Source: Rhodopirellula sp. P2
GTDB taxonomy: Bacteria > Planctomycetota > Planctomycetia > Pirellulales > Pirellulaceae
Length of the DNA: 64,000 bases
Assembly (NCBI RefSeq): GCF_028768465.1
Contig: NZ_CP118225.1
Location: 5,251,001 to 5,315,000 of the forward strand
Direction of reading: 5' to 3'
This document shows positions 3,508-63,808 of the stretch, one piece after another (positions within the stretch are counted from its first letter, which is position 1; each line of letters starts with the position of its first letter). The notes beneath the pieces were generated by a model. That model saw only the letters and a list, made by a program, of their open reading frames with translations. It was not told the origin of the DNA and did no database searches. A program made the translations under genes and the position numbers.

Positions 3508-3619
3508 TTCACCCTCCCTCAGGGAGGGTCGGCCCGCTTCGGGCCGGGGAGGGTGAGCATTGAATCCAACGCCGAACCCTCCCCTCGCTTTGCTCGACCC
3601 TCCCAGGGGGAGGGTGAAG
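3508..3619 (+). repeat. ~110-bp composite GGGAGGGT repeat, plus orientation
   Basis: Two GC-rich palindromes (CCCTCCCTCAGGGAGGGT and the CTCGACCCTCCC half with CCCAGGGGGAGGGT) are joined by a variable spacer. The same ~110-bp composite occurs inverted at 4765-4871 and in the same orientation at about 63340-63453. The two nearer copies bracket the GDP-fucose synthase gene. Confidence 0.8.
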
Positions 3620-4620: not shown

Positions 4621-5278
4621 TCTGCCCCCGTAGCCGGATTCGCCAAGAATTCGGACCCCGATTCCGCGGAATAGGCTTCCAGCCTGCCATGCCGCAAAAA
4701 ACTGAGTCCCTCTCCCGCTCGGAGATCGTGCCGTTCGTAAGTCTCGTATTGCCAGACGTTTGTCATCACCCTCCCCCTGGGAGGGTCGAGCGAAGCGAGG
4801 GGAGGGCTACACGTTTTAGGTTCGCCCTCCCCGGCCCGAAGCGGGCCGCCCCTCCCTGAGGGAGGGTGAAGTAAGTGCCATTCGGCGTTCGCCCCGGTTG
4901 CGCGTAAAAACCGTGGCTAACGCCAACGGCTCACATACCCGATCACACCTGCGTCCCTGCTTAGCCTGCCCCCGTAGCCGGATTCGCCAAAATTCGGATC
5001 CCAGTTTCCCCGTAGCCGGATTCGCCAGAATTCGGACTCGCCCTCAACCTCTCACACCCCACCGCGTCACGGCGTGTCGATTTTGTTGTAGGTTGGCCAC
5101 TCTTGGCCGACATCCACCACTTGGACGGGCAAGAGTGCCCATCCTCCAGGCGTTCCAACGTCGTTGACGACTGAATCAGCAAGGCATCCCCTCACACTCC
5201 GTAGCCGGATTCGCCAGAATTCGGGAAACCCTGAACCCGCGGCCCTGTGCCGCCGCCACCTTTCCCACTCTCTCTGCC
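4621..5278. repeat. Repeat-filled gap between fcl and gmd
   Basis: No gene. The gap holds copies of the 25-30-bp repeat here called RS1 (GTAGCCGGATTCGCCA...GAATTCGGA) at about 4628-4654, 4975-5002, 5012-5037 and 5201-5223. It also holds the inverted ~110-bp composite repeat (4765-4871) and a GGCTAACGCCAACGGCTCAC fragment near 4915-4935. Confidence 0.85.
4765..4871 (-). repeat. ~110-bp composite GGGAGGGT repeat, inverted copy
   Basis: This is the reverse complement of the composite at 3508-3619. The order is the CTGGGAGGGTCGAGCGAAGC part, a spacer, then GGCCCGAAGCGGGCC and CCTCCCTGAGGGAGGGT. Together with the first copy it makes an inverted pair around fcl. Confidence 0.8.
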
Positions 5279-6289: not shown

Positions 6290-6956
6290 GCACGTCCTCA
6301 CCGTAGCCGGATTCGCCAAGAATTCGGCCCCCGACTTCCCCGTAGCCGGATTCGCCAGAATTCGGACTCCAACTTCCCCGTAGCCGGATTCGCCAGAATT
6401 CGGACTGCAATTCCGTCCTCCATCCCGCCGTCCCTAACAACCTGAGCCCCAGAGTCCCCTCTCCCGCTTTTTGAAGTTGCATTTTTTCCTCCAATGGCCA
6501 ACGGCCTCGTTCAACATAGCCAGGGGCATCGCCCCTGGAGCAGAAGAACACGGCCCCCATTTTGGCCAACGGTCAAATTCAATCCAAAACGTTTGGGTTG
6601 ATGTTGGCCGTTGGACAACCAATGCCGGTTCAGTCTCGATGCCTGGGGCGATGCCTGGGCTGATAAAAATGTGCTTCGTCGAGTTTTAGCCCATCCGATG
6701 CTCGACCCTCCCCTCGCTTCGCTCGACCCTCCCTCTGGGAGGGTGATGAGAAACCCTTGGCAACACAGCACTTGAAAACCGCACGACCTCGCACGGGCGA
6801 GGGTGAGGCCTGCACTCGCGAACCTGTGGCCCTTTCCGCACTCGCCATGCCATCCACCAGGCGGCTCGCGCCACTCCGCTAAGAATTTCCGGCCACTCCC
6901 GACAGGCTAGAAGACTATCCCACTTTCTCTCTCCAAAGCCCAAACCCCTTCTCTTC
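6290..6956. repeat. Repeat-filled gap with three tandem RS1 copies
   Basis: No gene. Three RS1 copies spaced about 37-40 bp apart start near 6302, 6340 and 6378. Further on are a GGGAGGGT-type repeat half (about 6706-6748) and a half-site of the SL2 hairpin (GGCGGCTCGCGCCACTCCGC, about 6857-6880). Confidence 0.8.
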
Positions 6957-8282
6957 ATGTCATCTGATTTCACTTCACGGATTCAAGATCGTAGCGCCAC
7001 GGTGGGTGTTGTTGGACTCGGCTATGTCGGCCTGCCGCTGGCACTCGCCTACGCCGCCGGCGGCTTCAAAACCGTTGGCTTCGACATTGATGACAAGAAG
7101 ACGTCGGCGATCAACGGCAGCACCAGCTACATCAAACACATTTCGGCTGACTCCGTGGCCTCGGCGGTCCAATCCGGCAACCTCGCCGCCACGACTGACT
7201 TCAGCCAAATCCGTGAAGTCGACGCCATCATCCTGTGTGTCCCCACGCCGCTGGACGAGCACTTTGAGCCCGACCTTTCCTATGTGGTGAGCACGATCGA
7301 ATCGATCGTGCCGCACCTGCGGGCAGGCCAAACGATCAGCCTCGAAAGCACGACCTACCCAGGCACAACCAACGAAGAACTGGTCACTCGCATCGAAGCC
7401 GCAGGACTGCCTGTGGGCACCGACGTCCATGTCGTCTACTCGCCCGAACGAGAAGATCCCGGCAACCCCGAGTTCGCCGCCACCAACATCCCGAAAGTCG
7501 TCGGCGGCCACACCCCGGCATGCCTCGAGGCCGGCGTCGCACTGTACGGCAGCGTCTTTGATCAAGTCGTCCCGGTCAGCAGCACGCAAGTTGCCGAGCT
7601 GACCAAACTGCTGGAAAACATTTACCGCAGCGTCAACATTGGACTCGTCAACGAGTTGAAACTCGTCGCCGACGAAATGGGCATCGACATCTGGGAAGTC
7701 ATCCAGGCCGCCAGCACCAAACCCTTCGGCTTCAAAGCGTTTTATCCCGGCCCTGGATTGGGTGGTCACTGCATCCCGATCGACCCGTTCTACCTGACCT
7801 GGAAAGCACGCGAATTCGGGGTGCACACACGGTTCATTGAACTGGCCGGCGAGATCAACCGAGCGATGCCCACACACATCGTCCGCCGCTGTGCGGATGC
7901 TTTGAACCAACACAAAAAAGCCCTCAATGGCAGCAAGGTGCTGCTGATCGGGTTGGCCTACAAACCCAACGTCGATGACGCGCGAGAATCACCCTCCTAC
8001 GAACTCCTGGATCGACTGACCGCGCAGGGCGCCGAGGTCGACTACCACGACCCTTATGTCCCCATCGTCCCCCCATCGCGAGAACACTCGCATTGGGCCG
8101 GCAAACCCAGCGTGAGTTGGGATCAAGCAACGATTCAGGAATACGACCTGGTCTTGATTTCAACCTGGCACGATTGCCTCGACATCCACGAACTCGCCCA
8201 GTGGTCGCAATTCATCGTCGACACTCGCAACGCCACGGCGAAACTGCCACCCGAGCTGCAAACCAAAGTCCTCAAGGCCTAG
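6957..8282 (+). CDS. wbpA: UDP-sugar 6-dehydrogenase (UDP-GlcNAc/UDP-glucose dehydrogenase family, WbpA-like)
   Basis: NAD-dependent two-step oxidation of the C6 hydroxyl of a UDP-sugar to a uronic acid. The 441-residue protein shows GVVGLGYVGLPLALAYAAG for NAD binding, ESTTYPGTT, SPEREDPGN, ENIYRSVNIGLVNELK, and the active-site segment GPGLGGHCIPIDPFYL with catalytic Cys272. The SPEREDPGN and GLGGHCIPIDPFYL signatures place it with UDP-N-acetyl-hexosamine dehydrogenases rather than UDP-glucose dehydrogenase. The nearby DegT aminotransferase and oxidoreductase-acetyltransferase fusion complete a WbpA-B-E-D-like set, so UDP-GlcNAc is the preferred substrate by inference. Confidence 0.87.
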   Translation: MSSDFTSRIQDRSATVGVVGLGYVGLPLALAYAAGGFKTVGFDIDDKKTSAINGSTSYIKHISADSVASAVQSGNLAATTDFSQIREVDAIILCVPTPLDEHFEPDLSYVVSTIESIVPHLRAGQTISLESTTYPGTTNEELVTRIEAAGLPVGTDVHVVYSPEREDPGNPEFAATNIPKVVGGHTPACLEAGVALYGSVFDQVVPVSSTQVAELTKLLENIYRSVNIGLVNELKLVADEMGIDIWEVIQAASTKPFGFKAFYPGPGLGGHCIPIDPFYLTWKAREFGVHTRFIELAGEINRAMPTHIVRRCADALNQHKKALNGSKVLLIGLAYKPNVDDARESPSYELLDRLTAQGAEVDYHDPYVPIVPPSREHSHWAGKPSVSWDQATIQEYDLVLISTWHDCLDIHELAQWSQFIVDTRNATAKLPPELQTKVLKA

Positions 8283-8691
8283 TGGTCCGTCTCGCCTCCA
8301 CTTTCAGGTAGCGGAACTCGCCAAGAGTTTCGACGTGCACCATGAATTGCCGAAAGTCTTGGCGACTTCCGCTACGCCCCCACCCGTAGCCGGATTCGTC
8401 AAGAATCCGGTCCCCTCTCCCGCACCGGGAGAGGGCTAGGGTGAGGGCCTTTCCCAGCCCGTAGCCGGATTCGCCAGAATTCGGACCCCACCCGGCCACA
8501 TTCGCCAGAACTCCGCCCCCACCCGTAGCCGGATTCGTCAAGAATCCGGTCCGCCCTCGTAGCCGGATTCGCCAGAATTCGGACCTGAGTTCAACGGAAG
8601 CCCGCAAGCCCTCCGGTCACACACCGGGCGGCTCGCGCCACTCCGCTAAAACGAATACCCTGAGTCCCTGACGCCCCTTTCCCACTTTAAA
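8283..8691. repeat. Gap with stem-loop SL1 and RS1 copies
   Basis: No gene. It contains one SL1 hairpin (8309-8377), RS1 copies starting near 8388, 8460, 8525 and 8557, a GGGAGAGGGCTAGGGTGAGG repeat (about 8412-8450) and an SL2 half-site (about 8624-8648). Confidence 0.8.
8309..8377. repeat. SL1 stem-loop repeat, copy 1
   Basis: Inverted repeat with 25-nt arms. The left arm begins GTAGCGGAACTCGCCAAGAG and the right arm ends TCTTGGCGACTTCCGCTAC. The arms mismatch at two fixed positions (C opposite C, G opposite G) that are the same in all copies. The loop is about 19 nt and not conserved. Confidence 0.85.
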
Positions 8692-9687
8692 ATGCCCACC
8701 GCACTCATCACCGGCATCACCGGCCAAGACGGCTCGTACCTGACCGAGCAACTGCTCGATCGAGGCTACACGGTGCACGGCCTGGTCAGGCGGACCAGCA
8801 ACACGGTTCGATCTCGACTCGACCCGTTGTTCCATAACAAAGACGTCTACAACAAGAGCCTGTTCCTCCACTACGCGGACCTGGACGACACCACAACGAT
8901 CCGACGAATCCTCGTCAAAACACAACCCGACGAGCTGTATCATCTGGCAGGTCAAAGCCACGTTGGGGCCAGTTTTGACATTCCCGAATCGACGTGCCAG
9001 TTCACCGCCATGGGCACGCTCAAGATTCTGGAGATCCTTCGCGACCTCGAGAAACAACCGCGGTTCCTGCACATCAGCAGCAGCGAAATCTTCGGCCGCC
9101 CCGACGAATCTCCTCAGAACGAACACACGCCGATGCGGCCGGTCACGCCCTACGGCGTCGCCAAGACCTTCGCGACCCAGATGGTCCAACTCTACCGGGA
9201 ATCATTTGGTTTATTTGCCTGCAACGCGATTTGCTACAACCACGAATCACCGCGACGAGGCGAATCCTTCGTCACCCGCAAGATCACCAAGGCGGCCGCG
9301 GAAATCTCCCTGGGACTGAGCGATGAGATCGTGCTCGGTTCCCTGGATGGACGCCGTGACTGGGGCAGTGCCCCCGAGTACACCACCGCGATGCACCTGA
9401 TGCTGCAACAAGACACCCCAGATGACTACATCCTGGCGACGGGGAAAACACACAGTGTCGAAGAGTTCCTCGACGCCGCGTTTCAAAGCGTGGGGCTCAA
9501 CTACCAAGACCACCTGAAACAAAACCCCAAGTACATGCGTCCGGCGGAAGTCACTCGCCTGGTTGGCGACCCATCCCACGCCAAACAACGACTTGGCTGG
9601 GCCCCCACCACAACCGCCCTCGGCCTCGCCCAACAAATGACCGCCGCTGACGTTGAATCGCTGAAGCGATTGGCCGCTAGCAGTTAG
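8692..9687 (+). CDS. GDP-mannose 4,6-dehydratase-like NDP-sugar dehydratase (second copy)
   Basis: A 331-residue paralogue of the gmd at 5279: [40 protein letters not shown], the catalytic YGVAK (Tyr154/Lys158) and [16 protein letters not shown]. It lacks the SSSFNTDRI motif of classical Gmd (here RRTSNTVRSRL). This resembles GDP-mannose dehydratase homologues used in GDP-6-deoxysugar pathways such as those for GDP-rhamnose or GDP-perosamine. It probably makes GDP-4-keto-6-deoxymannose or acts on a related NDP-sugar. The product is uncertain; the dehydratase family is secure. Confidence 0.85.
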   Translation: MPTALITGITGQDGSYLTEQLLDRGYTVHGLVRRTSNTVRSRLDPLFHNKDVYNKSLFLHYADLDDTTTIRRILVKTQPDELYHLAGQSHVGASFDIPESTCQFTAMGTLKILEILRDLEKQPRFLHISSSEIFGRPDESPQNEHTPMRPVTPYGVAKTFATQMVQLYRESFGLFACNAICYNHESPRRGESFVTRKITKAAAEISLGLSDEIVLGSLDGRRDWGSAPEYTTAMHLMLQQDTPDDYILATGKTHSVEEFLDAAFQSVGLNYQDHLKQNPKYMRPAEVTRLVGDPSHAKQRLGWAPTTTALGLAQQMTAADVESLKRLAASS

Positions 9688-9749
9688 CCCAGAATGATCG
9701 GGACGAACGATGTGAGCCGTTTGGGCGTTAGCCCCGGTTGCATCACCCC

Positions 9750-9978
9750 CGTAGCCGGATTCGCCAAGAATTCGGACTGCCCCGTAGCCGGATTCGCCAA
9801 GAATTCGGACCGCCCCGTAGCCGGATTCGCCAAGAATTCGGACCGCCCCGTAGCCGGATTCGCCAAGAATTCGGACCGCCCTCGTAGCCGGATTCGCCAA
9901 AAATTCGGACCGCCCCGTAGCCGGATTCGCCAAGAATTCGGACCGCCCCGTAGCCGGATTCGCCAAGAATTCGGACCT
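9750..9978 (+). repeat. Seven tandem RS1 copies, 33-34-bp period
   Basis: Seven copies of RS1 begin at 9750, 9783, 9816, 9849, 9883, 9916 and 9949, each a near-identical GTAGCCGGATTCGCCAAGAA with a GGACCGCCC linker. Because 33 is a multiple of three, several frames stay open through the array and produce artefactual repeat proteins ([11 protein letters not shown]-type). The array fills the gap between the dehydratase gene and rmlB; there is no gene in it. Confidence 0.95.
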
Positions 9979-10054: not shown

Positions 10055-11461
10055 ATGAAAATTCTCATCACCGGCGGCGCCGGCTTCATCGGCAGCAACC
10101 TCGTCCGCATGGCTCTTGCCAACGGCCACCAAGTTCTCAACGTGGACGCGCTCACCTACGCCGGCAACCTCGCGTCGCTGTCGGAGATTGAATCCAACCC
10201 CAACTACCAATTCGCACACGTTGACATCACCGACGCCGCCGCGATGGACGCCGCCATCACCGGTTACCAGCCCGATGCGATCATGCACTTGGCCGCCGAG
10301 AGCCACGTCGATCGCAGCATCGATGGTCCTGGCCAATTCATTCAGACCAATGTCATTGGCACCTTCAATCTGCTTCAATCCAGTCTGAAGCACTATCGTT
10401 CGCTCACTCCCGCACAAGCAGCTCGCTTCCGATTCCTGCACGTCTCGACCGACGAAGTTTACGGCAGCCTCGGCGACGAAGGGTTGTTCACCGAAACCAC
10501 ACCTTACGATCCCCATTCACCGTACTCTGCCAGCAAAGCATCCTCGGACCATCTTGCCCGAGCCTGGCAGGACACGTATGGGTTGCCCGTCCTGGTCACC
10601 AACTGCAGCAACAACTACGGCCCGTATCAATTCCCCGAGAAATTGATCCCCGTCGTGATCCTCAAATGCCTGCGAGGCGAACCGATCCCGGTTTACGGCA
10701 AAGGCGAAAACATCCGCGATTGGTTGTATGTCGAAGACCATTGCCGAGCCCTGCTCACCGTCATTGAAAAAGGCACGCCCGGCGAGACCTACAACATCGG
10801 CGGCAACAACGAGCAAAGAAACATCGACCTCGTCCACCTGATCTGCAACCTCATGGACGAGCTTTGCCCCCAAGTCCCCTCTCCACCGCTTACGGGGGAG
10901 AGGGTTAGGGTGAGGGGGCAAAACAACAGCACTCCCCCCTCCACCTCCGAACTTCACCCTCCCTCTGGGAGGGTCGAGCAAAGCGAGGGGAGGGCCGCCC
11001 CTGAAGTCCCCTCGCCCCCGGCAACGGGGGAGAGGGCTAGGGTGAGGGGGAAAAACAACAGCACTCCCCCCTCCACCTCCGAACTTCACCCTCCCTTGGG
11101 GAGGGTCGAGCAAAGCGAGGGGAGGGCTACCCCAAAAGTCCCCTCTCCACCGGCAACGGGGGAGAGGGCTAGGGTGAGGGGGCAAAGCAACAAAACTCCC
11201 CTCTCCACCTCAGGGGGAGAGGGCCAGGGTGAGGGGGAAAAAAGCCACGCCTCCCTCATCACCTTCGTGACCGACCGCCCCGGCCACGACCTCCGCTACG
11301 CGATCGACGCCAGCAAAATCCAACGCGAACTCGGCTGGGAACCGCAAGAAGATTTCGAAAGCGGCTTTCGCAAGACCGTGCAGTGGTACCTCGACAACGA
11401 AACCTGGTGGCAAAACATCCTCACCGGCGACTACCAGTTGGGCCGTCTGGGGACGGCTTAG
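10055..11461 (+). CDS. rmlB: dTDP-glucose 4,6-dehydratase with an in-frame repeat insertion
   Basis: Converts dTDP-glucose to dTDP-4-keto-6-deoxyglucose in the cytosol. The NAD site [21 protein letters not shown], the catalytic YSASK (Tyr157/Lys161) and [14 protein letters not shown] are intact. The C-terminal signature [18 protein letters not shown] is also intact. The protein is 468 residues instead of about 345. Roughly residues 273-395 (nt 10871-11239) are an insertion made of the same GC-rich repeats seen between genes: two full units with a 132-bp period (44 codons) and a third, partial one. The insertion replaces the usual short stretch between LICNLMDEL and [16 protein letters not shown]. 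Frame is kept and no stop occurs. Whether the enzyme stays active is not known. Confidence 0.9.
10871..11239 (+). repeat. Coding repeat array inside rmlB (132-bp period)
   Basis: This array alternates the element GGGGGAGAGGGCTAGGGTGA with the element CCCTCCCTCTGGGAGGGTCG. The landmark AACAACAGCACTCC recurs at 10922 and 11054, exactly 132 bp apart. The encoded unit [15 protein letters not shown]...SEGRATPK is 44 residues. A third unit starts near 11137 and degenerates into GGEGQGEGE. Both elements also occur between genes (for example 8412-8450 and 4765-4810). Confidence 0.92.
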
Positions 11462-36465: not shown

Positions 36466-36704
36466 GCATCTGATCCCCATTCTTGATCGCGACGCACCAC
36501 TAGCGGCTTGTTGATTGAATGAGCCGCACTGGGTTAACGTACGCTTCATCTCCGGTAACCGTAGGCTAGCGTTGGGCTGATCGTTCGATCTGCGAAACGT
36601 TTTGAATCAACGCGCTGCTAGCCCTCTTTCATCAGGGCAACGATTGAATGACTGGTGTGACTCGGTAATTGCAGTGGCCTCGTGTTTCGGGACACTGGAC
36701 TGAG

Positions 36705-37060
36705 ATGTTGGGCAACCACCGCGGAGCGGCGACAGATCGTTCTGAACTCGTTGTCAACTGTCGTCACTCCGCGACTTGGGTGTGCGTTGGTCACGGCCGG
36801 ACCTTGGGTTGAAACCCAAGGCTGACCCAATGCCGTCGCTCCGCGACTGTTCGGACAGGATGTTGGCCAACCAACGCGGAGCGGTGACAGAGTGTTCCGA
36901 ACTCGTTGTCAACTGTCGTCGCTCCGCGACTTGGGTGTGCGTTGGTCACGGCCGGACCTTGGGTTGAAACCCAAGGCTGGACCAATGTCGTCGCTCCGCG
37001 ACTGTTCGGACAGGCTGTTGGGCAACCACCGCGGAGCGGCGACAGAGGGGTTCCAAATCG
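36705..37060. repeat. 155-bp tandem repeat with perfect internal hairpin
   Basis: The word TTGTCAACTGTCGTC recurs at 36751 and 36906 (155-bp spacing), and a GGCAACCACCGCGGAGCGGC-type start occurs at about 36710, 36863 and 37020. Each full unit contains the perfect hairpin CCTTGGGTTGAAACCCAAGG and the CGTCGCTCCGCGAC / GCGGAGCG inverted words. Confidence 0.85.
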
Positions 37061-37466
37061 TGGCCAACTGCGATCGCTGGGGGACACCTGTTCTCCGAAC
37101 CGAGCCAATTGGATTGTTTCGACTGTTTCTTCCAGGCCGTTTGGGCAGGCAACTCGTTGGCACGTTGGGCTGGCGATTCGACGGGCCACGCGGAACAGTT
37201 GGGGACAACTGTTCTACTCTGCTGGAAGCCGATGCCACTTTTTCTTGACGGTTGCTCGGGCTGAATCGGAAACACCGCTTTTGACGGTTCCGGGGGGCAT
37301 TCCGGAAGTGCCGGATGCCCGTTGCCAAGCCTCTGGAATTGCATTTCCCGATTCGGATTTCCTAGCCCAACGGCGGCTGGCTCCGTACACTTGACTGCAT
37401 CTTCAGCAGATTCTCTCCGCTTTGCCGTACCATCCCCGCTCCTCTGCTTTTCATCACGGACTTCGG

Positions 37467-40040: not shown

Positions 40041-41930
40041 CCGGATTCGCCAAGAATTCGGACACGTGGGCGGATCATCACAACCCGAATGCGTCAGCGA
40101 GGGACTCCCAGAACAACGTGTCGGACTCCCTCACGTTCCCGGATTCGCCAAGAATTCGGACGCATCCCTGTAGCCGGATTCGCCCAGAATTCGGACACGA
40201 CAAGGAATTCAGCCACAGAGGTCACCGAGGGCACAGAGGTCTGATGCTCAGGACCTTACGTAGCACGGCCCCGCTCTCTGACTGAAATCTGCTCGATCCA
40301 ATGGTTGGCCAAAGGCTTTCTCCAACGCAGCCCAGGGCAACGCCCTAGGAACACGGTGGACAATGGATTGCTTTGGGCGACGACCGAATTCAACTCTTCC
40401 TGTTGGGTTGAACTGGGCAGTTGAATTGAACCGGGCGGTTAGCCATCCAAACGGTCAACATCAAACTCCACCCTGCTCTCTGTGAACTCGGTGTCCTCGG
40501 TGGCAGTCAAACGCCCACTGAACCAAGCCAAGTTCCCCGTCACCGGATTCGCCAAGAATTCGGACGCGACATGAAGGTCAGCCACAGAGGTCACCGAGGG
40601 CACAGAGGTCTGATGCTCAGGACCTTACGTAGCACGGCCCCGCTCTCTGACTGAAATCTGCTCGATCCAATGGTTGGCCAAAGGCTTTCTCCAACGCAGC
40701 CCAGGGCAACGCCCTAGGAACACGGTGGACAATGGATTGCTTTGGGCGACGACCGAATTCAACTCTTCCTGTTGGGTTGAACTGGGCAGTTGAATTGAAC
40801 CGGGCGGTTGGCCATCCAAACGGTCAACGTCAAGCCCCACCCTGCTCTCTGTGAACTCGGTGCCCTCGGTGGCAGTCAAACGCCCACTGAACCAAGCCAA
40901 GTTCCCCGTCGCCGGATTCGCCGAGAATTCGGACGCGTGGGCGGATCATCACAACCCGAATGCGTCAGCGAGGGACTCCCATCACAACGCGTCGGACTCC
41001 CTCACGTCCCCGGATTCGCCGAGGATTCGGACGTGGACCGGCTGGACCTCTGAATTCTGGCGAATCCAGCTACGGTCTAGATTCTGGCGAATCCAGCTAC
41101 GATCGGGAGTGGAGCCGTTTGGGCATTCAATCCGGTTGCGCGTGGGAACCGTGGCTAACGCCAAACGGCTCACATACTGATGACGCTTGCATGCCGGCCC
41201 ACGAAGCCAGACAAGGTTCCCCGTCGCCGAATTCGCCAAGGGTTCGGACGCGTGGGCGAATTATCACAACCCGAATGCGTCAGCGAGGGACTCCCAGAAC
41301 AACGCATCGGACTCCCTCACGTCGCCGGATTCGCCGAGGGTTCGGGCGTGGAGCAGCGGACCTCTGAATTCTGGCGAATCCAGCTACGGTCTTGAATCTG
41401 GCGAATCCAGCTACGATCGGGAGTGGAGCCGAATGGGCATTCAAACCGGTTGCGCGTGGGAACCGTGGCTAACGCCATACGGCTCACATACCGATGACGC
41501 TTGCTTCGCCTGACGATGAAGCCAGATGAGGTACCCCGTCGCCCGATTCGCGAAGGGTTCGGACGCGTGGGCGAATCATCACAACCCGGTGTGTAGCCCT
41601 CCCCTCGCTTCGCTCGACCCTCCCAGGGGGAGGGTGAATTTGTAATATGGGAACCGTGGCTAACGCCATACGGCTCACATACTGAAGACGCTTGCTTCGC
41701 CTGCCTACGAAGCCAGACGAGGTTCCCCGTCGCCGGATTCGCCGAGGGTTCGGACGTGGAGCAGGGGGAACTCTGAATTCTGGCGAATCCAGCTACGGTC
41801 TGAAATCGGGCGAATCCGGCGATTGCTTGGTCCCTCGCTGACGCGTTCGGGTTGGGATTCGATACTCAGCCGTCGCGTTCGTCTGAATTCTGGCGAATCC
41901 AGCTACGGACCTGTTGCAATTTCTAGCGTT
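40041..41930. repeat. Composite repeat block between BY-kinase and exosortase genes
   Basis: About 1.9 kb without a gene. It contains RS1 copies in both orientations, several 97-bp-type units (ACCCGAATGCGTCAGCGAGG), the 369-bp tandem duplication (40212-40936), GAGCCG[TTT/AAT]GGGC hairpins and one GGGAGGGT half-repeat (about 41594-41637). Plus-oriented RS1 copies are repeatedly followed by inverted ones, giving potential long hairpins. Confidence 0.85.
40212..40936. repeat. 369-bp tandem duplication
   Basis: The segment beginning GCCACAGAGGTCACCGAGGG at 40212 recurs at 40581, with a 369-bp period, and the match runs to 40567 and 40936. Only a few substitutions are seen (for example GTTAGCC/GTTGGCC and GTCACCGG/GTCGCCGG), indicating a recent duplication. 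The unit ends in an RS1 copy. Confidence 0.9.
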
Positions 41931-53935: not shown

Positions 53936-55180
53936 CGTAGCCGGATTCGCCAGAATTCGGACAGCCACCAACTCGATGATCTGCATTCCGGCGATTCCAC
54001 CGACTGCGTGGTCCCTCGCTGACGCGTTCGGGTTGTGATCGGACGACCGGCTATCGCGAGCGTCTGAATGCCGGCGAATCCAGCTACTGCATGGTCCCTC
54101 GCTGACGCGTTCGGGTTGTGATCGGACGACCGGCTATCGCGAGCGTCGGAATGCTGGCGAATCCAGCGACACGCGACCGCGTAGCCGGATTCGCCAGAAT
54201 TCGGACATTCACCAACTCGATGATCTGAGTTCCGGCGATTCCAGCGACTGCATGGTCCCTCGCTCACGCGTTCGGGTTGTGATCGGACGATCGGCTATCG
54301 CGAGCGTCTGAATGCTGGCGAATCCAGTGACACGCGACCACGTAGCCGGATTCGCCAGAATTCGGACACCCACCAACTCGATGATCTGAATTCTGGCGAT
54401 TCCAGCGACCGCGTGGTCCCTCGCTGACGCGTTCGGGTTGTGATCGGACGACCGGCTATCGCGAGCGTCTGAATGCTGGCGAATCCAGCGACACGCGACC
54501 ACGTAGCCGGATTCGCCAGAATTCGGACATTCACCAACTCGATGATCTGAGTTCCGGCGATTCCACCGACTGCGTGGTCCCTCGCTGACGCGTTCGGGTT
54601 GTGATCGGACGACCGGCTATCGCGAGCGTCTGAATGCTGGCGAATCCAGCGACACGCGTCCACGTAGCCGGATTCGCCAAGAATTCGGACACCCACCAAC
54701 TCGATGATCTGAGTTCCGGCGATTCCAGCGACTGCCTGGTCCCTCGCTGACGCGTTCGGGTTGTGATTGGACGATCGGCTATCGTGCGCGTCTGAATGCT
54801 AGCGAATCCAGCGACACGCGACCGCGTAGCCGGATTCGCCAGAATTCGGACAGCCACCAACTCGATGATCTGAGTTCCGGTGATTCCAGCGACTGCGTGG
54901 TCCCTCGCTGACGCGTTCGGGTTGTGATCGGACGACCAGCTATCGCGCGCGTCTGAATGCTGGCGAATCCAGTGACACGCGACCACGTAGCCGGATTCGC
55001 CAGAAGTCGGACACCCACCAACTCGATGATCTGAGTTCCGGCGATTCCGACGGCTGCCTGGTCCCTCGCTGACGCGTTCGGGTTGTGATCGGACGACCGG
55101 CTATTGCACGCGTCTGAACTCTGGCGAATCCAGTGACACGCGACCACGTAGCCGGATTCGCCAGAATTCGGACAGCCACC
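53936..55180. repeat. 161-bp tandem satellite
   Basis: RS1 begins at 53936, 54180, 54341, 54502, 54663, 54825, 54986 and 55147; six of the seven intervals are 161-162 bp, the first is 244 bp and contains an extra partial unit. Each unit runs RS1 in plus orientation, CCAACTCGATGATCTGA, the 97-bp core inverted (TCCCTCGCTGACGCGTTCGG), then an inverted RS1-like GAATGCTGGCGAATCCAGC. It occupies almost the whole gap before the 1255-residue surface protein. Confidence 0.93.
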
Positions 55181-55313
55181 AAATTTCACACTGCGCGGAT
55201 TGTATCGCTTGGGCCAGTAGCTATGCTTGGAAGAGCACCCCTCTGCAGGGCCGCTTTATCAATGGTTCCCAAACGAGAGTTGCTGGTCAACCAATGTGCC
55301 TGGGCTCAATTCA

Positions 55314-63204: not shown

Positions 63205-63808
63205 GCAGGACTCTTGAAACGAGAAAACGAAATCGCAGAATCGCATTCGCCGCGAACTCAGCCCCTCTAAAATACCCGATCAGGGGCTCTCAACGCAAAG
63301 CGATTCTCCCCCCTCAGTCGAGGTCATGCAGTTCTACCCCCCCCCCCTCCCTTTGGGAGAGTCGGACCGCTTCGGGCCGGGGAGGGTCACGCGCTGGATC
63401 CAATGCGGAGTCCTCCCCTCGCTTCGCTCGATCCTCCCAACGGGAGGGTGATGACAATCGCCTGGCAATCCAAGACTTAAAAACGGCACGACCTCAGTCG
63501 GCGGGCGGATCCGCTTGCCATTCAAACCTGTCAATCAGCTCCGTGATCGATCAGCGGGAAAGGTCTGTGTCCGGGACCTTTTCTGCGATTCCCTCCACGG
63601 CCAGTTCCGGCAAAAGGGACCTGACCTGATCCCCAACCGTTCCTAACTTCATTGATCCCAATCGGTTGCTCTTTCGCGGGCCGCCTTCTCCCGCTAAATC
63701 CGAAGCTTCCAATGGATGCACGTCGAGCGGCAAACTCACTAGACTATCACCGCTTCGAAACGCTTCTGACTGCCGTGCTCACACTCTCTCGAACACCCAC
63801 TTCGATTC
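63205..63808. repeat. Gap with third copy of the ~110-bp composite repeat
   Basis: The composite GGGAGGGT repeat lies at about 63340-63453 in the same orientation as the copy at 3508, preceded by a run of C (about 63337-63347). No gene is seen in the remainder. The promoter of the Hsp70 gene probably lies in 63600-63800. Confidence 0.75.

Follow-up and report, generated by a model that had tools for sequence, protein, structure and literature searches.

Palindromic repeats that lie within genes

The palindromic elements of Rickettsia (RPEs) form in-frame fusions in unrelated genes, and one enzyme that carries such an element is still active; according to the available excerpts of the accounts of this work (Ogata et al., 2000, 2002, through PMC2229807 and PMC10969869), the RPE-bearing guanylate kinase is reported as active with an altered substrate affinity. 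The GTAG/CGTC-tagged REPs of several bacteria are mostly intergenic palindromes, some of which lie inside ORFs, and the accessible portions of their description (PMC3733652) mention intragenic REP clusters in Thauera and R. conorii that encode 43–82 aa, two Xanthomonas species whose recB genes carry REPs at roughly matching sites, REP arrays beside exopolysaccharide genes in Thauera, and the occurrence of tagged REPs in Planctomycetes.

The rmlB gene of Rhodopirellula sp. P2 contains an insert built from two repeats of its genome, here called A and B, and the same linker contains a third, palindrome C, in related genomes. As far as the excerpts on RPEs go, the likeness lies in short repeats, palindromic or putatively so, with copies both in intergenic DNA and in frame inside unrelated genes, where they specify a conserved peptide; it is a likeness by description, Rickettsia belonging to another phylum and the B block measuring ∼48 nt against 105–150 bp for RPEs, and at rmlB more than one family has piled up in a single linker, with multiplication in tandem units. 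With the tagged REPs, as portrayed in the portions available, the repeats share a mostly intergenic position with some copies within ORFs, and recurrence at the same site. They differ in the larger size of the rmlB array (∼107–121 aa), and in a recurrence at the same site that involves several repeat families and much of the genus. The tag may be a further difference: GTAG/CGTC is absent by eye from most gene copies of B, but the second B copy of rmlB and a group of intergenic B copies are followed by CTAC, the complement-strand form of GTAG.

RAYT-mobilised REPs and REPINs are likewise short repeats in many copies, of hairpin form (putatively so for B), and a RAYT route is possible for A and B, matches to Y1_Tnp (PF01797) occurring in 13 of 13 genomes of the genus. 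The genome of strain P2 has 13 such matches, 12 above cut-off; at 6437942–6440280 three Y1 transposase matches of equal score stand in a row, ∼1 kb apart. Coding tandem repeats, in the part of PMC6749651 at hand, resemble the array in a unit length that is a multiple of three and in a register kept inside the ORF, the difference being that the rmlB unit is itself assembled from repeats found elsewhere in the genome. Among the matches listed in the open-licence literature, no report of repeat-built inserts of such a kind in this genus was found.

The insert in rmlB

The locus lies in a window of 64,000 nucleotides (the whole stretch of DNA that was analysed) from a genome assembled as one contig of 7,291,416 bases. 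The product of rmlB belongs to the RmlB family, matching TIGR01181 (dTDP_gluc_dehyt) in two stretches with 477.4 bits (cut-off 365.1), and it aligns with E. coli 1bxk from query 2–275 (chain 3–278) and again from query 395–466 (chain 281–352). The linker of the strain P2 protein is 131 residues long, and that of distant RmlB proteins 10–24 aa in 79 measured of 80 loci (L177 was missed; the set consists of loci of other organisms, and near relatives may be left out), therefore roughly 107–121 codons are extra, near the ∼123 that the earlier note had given. Residues T132, D133, E134, Y157 and K161, which we take to be catalytic, are invariant columns of a 48-row alignment, and the motifs are intact. 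A search of the genome found no second close rmlB. The insert comprises four copies of repeat A and two of repeat B in the order A-B-A-B-A-A4:

10055..11461, + strand: rmlB, dTDP-glucose 4,6-dehydratase, single uninterrupted ORF, 468 aa; next best match in the genome listed at 31% identity
10867..10998, + strand: 132-bp unit 1 (A1-B1), 44 residues in frame from 10868
10876..10917, + strand: repeat A copy 1, made up of the hairpin CCCTCTCC..GGAGAGGG and a tail; core at 10895; DNA fold z −4.64
10952..10999, + strand: repeat B copy 1, 16 codons, frame f0; core at 10967
10999..11130, + strand: 132-bp unit 2 (A2-B2), 90% identity to unit 1; 13 differences; pS 0.161, pN 0.077
11008..11049, + strand: repeat A copy 2; core at 11027
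11084..11131, + strand: repeat B copy 2, frame f0 (16 residues); core at 11099
11131..11262, + strand: partial third unit (A3), merging into A4 and host sequence; 64% in the 132-bp register
11140..11181, + strand: repeat A copy 3; core at 11159
11198..11236, + strand: repeat A copy 4 (A4), different reading frame, 12 residues; core at 11214

The 132-bp register is exact through all three units, in agreement with the earlier description of 44-codon units, two complete and a partial third, and Tandem Repeats Finder returned 10872–11211 with 2.6 copies and 90% matches. That the array is an assembly artefact or a miscounted tandem in the reference is scarcely credible: the number of tandem units is a typical assembler error, but here the assembly consists of one contig, 13 of 132 positions distinguish the units, the frame is kept, and similar shorter arrays are present in two sister genomes, G121 and G120.

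The repeat had also been said to keep frame without a stop, which the uninterrupted ORF bears out. The open frame as evidence was rejected as weak, being unremarkable by itself: when the 369-nt insert is shuffled with its dinucleotides kept, 315 of 2000 shuffles also lack a stop in that frame, and the 132-bp unit is open in two of six frames. A4 has CAG where A1–A3 have TAG, and TAG in the frame of A4 would be a stop. When the window was shuffled 100 times, neither the core pattern of A nor that of B turned up. A cmscan of the window, with two matches, placed no known RNA family at rmlB. Two Acido-Lenti-1 RNA matches (RF01687, cut-off 37) lie 155 bp apart at 36802–36848 (41.3 bits) and 36957–37003 (39.6 bits), within a 155-bp tandem repeat at 36704–37078. 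Seven near-identical 33-bp tandem copies occupy 9747–9977, just 5′ of rmlB, and share the motif CCGGATTCGCCA with further units spread over the window, the largest being those of a seven-copy 161-bp array at 54063–55182.

Compared with the five nearest sisters, the N part of rmlB has dS 0.43–0.76, dN 0.043–0.060 and dN/dS 0.08–0.10; by these rates the N-terminal core of RmlB is under purifying selection. For the 147-nt C part and the same five sisters, dN/dS is 0.10–0.39, with the maximum against G124. From DRPGHD to the stop, 11 of the 13 genomes of the genus have 62–66 residues; the end of G124 is divergent and only 57 residues long, and in G121 a TGA stands 18 codons short of the usual end (44 vs 62 residues). 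These short ends are either errors or a sign that the C-terminus is incompletely guarded, and because of them the downstream part of RmlB is judged, across the 13 genomes, mostly intact but not in every one. A decaying rmlB, in which the insert marks an incipient pseudogene, is highly improbable in view of the low dN/dS of the N part, the regular ends in 11 genomes, and an ORF that is complete, with intact motifs and no other close rmlB found; what speaks for it is the size of the insert, large for a metabolic enzyme, and the early stop of G121. The 147-nt C part of strain P2 is closest to that of G121 (93%), with G122 at 90% and G124 at 87%, and the region 5′ of rmlB is instead closest to G124 (93.8% over 1121 bp), a difference in nearest sister that hints at recombination at the repeat.

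An AlphaFold2 model from 48 aligned sequences has a mean pLDDT of 77.9, reaching at least 90 in 263 of 468 residues and falling below 50 at residues 86–89, 284–337, 339–390 and 465–468, and the insert is predicted to lack helix and strand throughout. The best match of the model in the PDB is 1keu (TMt 0.91), in line with membership of the RmlB fold. Residues 284–390 are modelled as a low-confidence coil on this fold, much as the earlier note had pictured a loop hanging off a dTDP-sugar enzyme.

The linker and the repeats across the genus

All 13 genomes of the genus set, this one included, have a match to rmlB, and nine of them carry repeat-like DNA in the linker (assigned by reading the sequences, the C arm of G119 being recognised by eye), in combinations that differ and are partly nested. 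Palindrome C, a heptamer, or its arms occur in six of the nine. Shorter A..A4 versions occupy the same place in G121 (61 aa) and G120 (43 aa); the linker of G122 (47 aa) has A flanked by two C arms, that of G119 (74 aa) a C arm and two B copies, one in f0 and one in a different frame, and C-type linkers are found in G124 and G125 (38 aa each), G127 (31 aa) and G123 (29 aa). The linkers of G045 (25 aa), G126 (14 aa), G115 (12 aa) and G091 (11 aa) have no recognised repeat. Outside the genus, A-like sequence in different frames is present in two genomes, each of another genus: G011, with a linker of 68 aa, and G112, where both rmlB copies have one of 33 aa. They were noticed among the 30 loci retrieved when 119 genomes were searched for the family, which implies no rate. 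The two rmlB genes of G112 (L010, L198) are ∼3.6 kb apart, and in each the A-like insert occupies this linker. Together, the repeat-bearing linkers of the genus, G011 and G112 span 29–131 aa.

Aligning the relatives thus revealed no unrelated insertion common to them all; where inserts exist they largely belong to the same repeat families. The proposal that a repeat colonised a metabolic gene and grew there survives in that in-frame genome repeats have multiplied as 132-bp units, with the correction that the site is no one-off of the species, nine of 13 genomes having repeat-like DNA in this linker. Attempts to order the insertions by phylogeny were abandoned, the rmlB trees being poorly resolved (well-supported inner branches 5 of 18 for protein, 3 of 9 for DNA).

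An enlarged linker in nine of 13 genomes would also suit a loop selected for function, a disordered proline-/arginine-rich tether on a polysaccharide enzyme whose unit number tunes interaction, localisation or activity; a palindrome at the left junction that covaries in seven sequences, and a pN lower than pS when unit 1 is compared with unit 2, point the same way. We hold such a role to be unlikely, as neither the sequence nor the length of the loop is conserved, four of the 13 genomes have no recognised repeat insert, and the remaining B-bearing proteins are functionally unrelated; the comparison of the units is based on 13 differing sites (5.5 synonymous and 7.5 non-synonymous), too few to conclude from.

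The B core (27 nt, three mismatches or fewer) occurs at 89 places in the strain P2 genome and its reversed pattern at 0; across the genus B is present in 11 of 13 genomes, at 0 to 89 places, with controls at 0. The A core (three mismatches or fewer) occurs at 10 places, four of them in rmlB, and in 6 of 13 genomes, with one control match, in G045; 2 of 6 places in G120, 2 of 6 in G121 and 1 of 2 in G122 lie inside rmlB. The heptamer pattern of C is found in 10 of 13 genomes, where matches overlap and do not represent copy number (six control matches in G119), and falls within the rmlB linker in G122, G123, G124, G125 and G127; for G127, two of three matches in the genome sit in rmlB, which does not imply dispersal of C there. 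Further cores in the window are the following:

3578..3604, − strand: B core; no ORF with 40 codons on both sides
4779..4805, + strand: B core; no ORF with 40 codons on both sides
6707..6733, − strand: B core; no ORF with 40 codons on both sides
8426..8448, + strand: A core, between ORFs 6957–8282 and 8692–9687
41598..41624, − strand: B core; no ORF with 40 codons on both sides
63412..63438, − strand: B core with 2 mismatches; one ORF crosses, with 78 and 62 codons either side

Both repeats had been taken as normally intergenic. This is right in part for B, which lies also in eight other genes, mostly in one frame, and a poor fit for A, with four of its 10 places in rmlB. The same concentration, here and in G120, G121 and G122, makes rmlB a possible source of A, and the 132-bp array could then be a local expansion of an old linker, the genome copies having left rmlB rather than entered it. 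That course of events is decidedly unlikely: B is found at 89 places here, 44 in G120 and 39 in G121, yet the rmlB linkers of G120 and G121 have no recognised B; the 79 distant loci measured of 80 are without the insert; and the A and B cores adjoin elsewhere too, at 362415–362516, with a spacing of 75 vs 72 in rmlB.

Folded as single-stranded DNA, A beats its shuffles (z −4.64), and B has a z of −0.56 despite an 8-bp stem; for the C-bearing linkers z is −6.37 in G127, −3.65 in G122 (with A), −2.55 in G119, −2.49 in G123 and −1.32 in G124. A 7-bp palindrome at the left linker junction (L081–L086, L016) spans host codons and insert and covaries between species: 93.9% of its cells are paired in seven sequences vs 37–61% when slid, and seven cells are double-changed vs 2.1 in shuffles (0 of 500 reach 7); three pairs show a double change, which 102 of 500 shuffles reach. 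Templated maintenance or an RNA-level constraint is possible. B variants whose core begins with the base A are repeated at 234-bp intervals at 5981824–5982786 (L221) and at 233-bp intervals at 2287097–2287822 (L238).

Repeat B in other genes and the origin of the insert

The 89 places of B gave 85 copies with distinct 40-nt flanks, four not being separated. Ten copies are in frame in nine accepted genes of the strain P2 genome, namely two in rmlB and the others in eight further genes, acceptance being a matter of judgement and some genes weakly supported:

HsdR with a B copy; TIGR00348, 468.7 bits (cut-off 284.55)
WD40 protein with a B copy; kinase match below cut-off
PSCyt2/PSD1 protein with a B copy
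Double ABC ATPase with a B copy, read antisense
ImuA with a B copy; weaker ground, NF033429 below cut-off
ImuB-like protein with a B copy; weaker ground, weak polymerase IV matches
GspK-like protein with a B copy; weaker ground, below cut-off
L232 with a B copy; weaker ground, no family, conserved in sister genomes

The last four of these genes, ImuA, ImuB-like, GspK-like and L232, have no family match above cut-off. Many long ORFs that cross B, for example in L210, L212, L069, L220, L234 and L235, were judged spurious by eye and left uncounted, as were L215, with no family, and L066, which has an NMT1 domain and in which B probably lies 5′ of the true start.

Frame f0, with its 16-residue peptide or a near variant, is used by 9 of the 10 gene copies and in 8 of the 9 genes, the exception being the ABC copy. 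All 85 copies are open in f0 across 48 nt; the counts for the remaining frames are 83, 78, 82, 9 and 68, and five of the six frames are usually open. In HsdR, PSCyt2/PSD1, the double ABC ATPase and a P-type ATPase of G120, B is flanked by family matches on both sides. The 39 B copies of G121 yielded four accepted genes, all in f0 and all common with strain P2. Among 68 copies examined in G124 and G120 (29 of 29 listed places and 39 of 44, respectively), G124 has f0 copies in its WD40 gene and its GspK-like gene, and G120 has them in L232, ImuA, ImuB and the P-type ATPase, where the copy separates the YHS domain from the HMBD domain; the f0 ORFs L371 and L360 of G120, kept apart, have no Pfam match, nor has L344 of G124. 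Across the genus, where rmlB of G119 contributes one f0 event and one in another frame, 10 of 12 accepted gene events are in f0 (binomial tail 4.5e-6 if five frames are equally likely), or 12 of 14 with two unsupported ORFs (2.5e-7), figures that are a guide and not a test, the frame having been picked after looking, ImuA and ImuB being neighbours and maybe linked, and genes being accepted by judgement. Like the Rickettsia elements, B lies in frame in several unrelated genes with a conserved peptide, and the idea of a non-coding repeat that strayed into rmlB falls short in that B, placed in eight other genes, is not purely non-coding.

Orthologues without B exist for several of these genes. 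PSD1 has a clear B in strain P2 and G121, decayed copies in G124 and G122, and none in G120 and G123; ImuA has a clear B in strain P2, G121, G122 and G120, a decayed one in G124 and none in G123; ImuB has a clear B in the same four genomes and none in G124. The kinase-WD40 gene has B in strain P2 and G124 and none in G120, L232 has it in strain P2, G122 and G120, shortened in G124 and absent from G121 and G123, and the GspK-like gene has it in strain P2, G121, G120, G122 and G124. Decayed part-copies precede the clear B copy in ImuA, ImuB, L232 and the GspK-like protein. For HsdR, G121 and G122 have only distant homologues, without B, and the double ABC of G124 has a shorter linker and is of uncertain orthology. 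Loss and a site never filled would look alike at the empty orthologous sites.

The gene copies of B begin with CTTCAC in 10 of 10 cases vs 14 of 75 other copies, have C at column −2 in 0 of 10 vs 41 of 75, and have CGGCCCGAAG downstream within 60 nt in 0 of 10 vs 31 of 75. A C at column −2 would give Pro-Pro-Pro in f0, and one may speculate about selection against that. Because the gene copies share one subtype and mostly one frame, B might include a lineage resident in genes and spreading as an element compatible with the peptide, with selection on the encoded peptide, beyond survival of the host frame, shaping its persistence, and with the rmlB linker as a nested landing pad where a genus-wide loop arose from three repeat families. 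We regard this as possible but doubtful.

The explanation that we favour, and consider likely, is that palindromes of the REP type insert into protein linkers that tolerate them, expand in place, and stay in frame through selection on the host protein, in the manner of RPEs and intragenic REPs. It sets out from direct observations: the anatomy of the array, copy numbers, recurrence at the same site, the frame bias, filled and empty orthologous sites, and purifying selection on the N-terminal core. The linker from helix 256–270 to the downstream 11-residue segment of RmlB would be a tolerant loop and a repeated landing site. Palindrome C may have come first, in much of the genus, A would then have inserted within C or replaced it, and B would have joined A, after which slippage or unequal recombination, to judge from the register, probably doubled the A-B composite of 132 bp (44 codons). 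B is found in the linkers of further proteins as well, mostly in one frame. The survivors would be in frame and disordered because selection on the downstream protein purges most events that break the frame or bring a stop. A and B would be mobile by transposition, possibly through Y1/RAYT-type transposases encoded in these genomes, and RmlB with its loop is presumably made and active. Against this explanation count the early stop of G121, the short end of G124, the higher dN/dS of the C part and the rarity of A, as do the z of −0.56 for B, the antisense ABC copy, the one off-frame B copy of G119, the C arm of G119 assigned by eye, the C matches of G127 that fall mostly in rmlB, the possible linkage of ImuA and ImuB, and the poorly resolved rmlB trees.

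For annotation, such 20-residue stretches are to be read as repeat-derived and not as domains. With these inserts a planctomycete genus joins the few cases in which dispersed palindromes have turned into protein sequence, and its sister genomes present the empty, filled and decayed states. It thereby becomes testable whether the inserts are no more than tolerated, what makes one frame predominate, and whether a protein linker can serve as a landing pad that is filled layer by layer.
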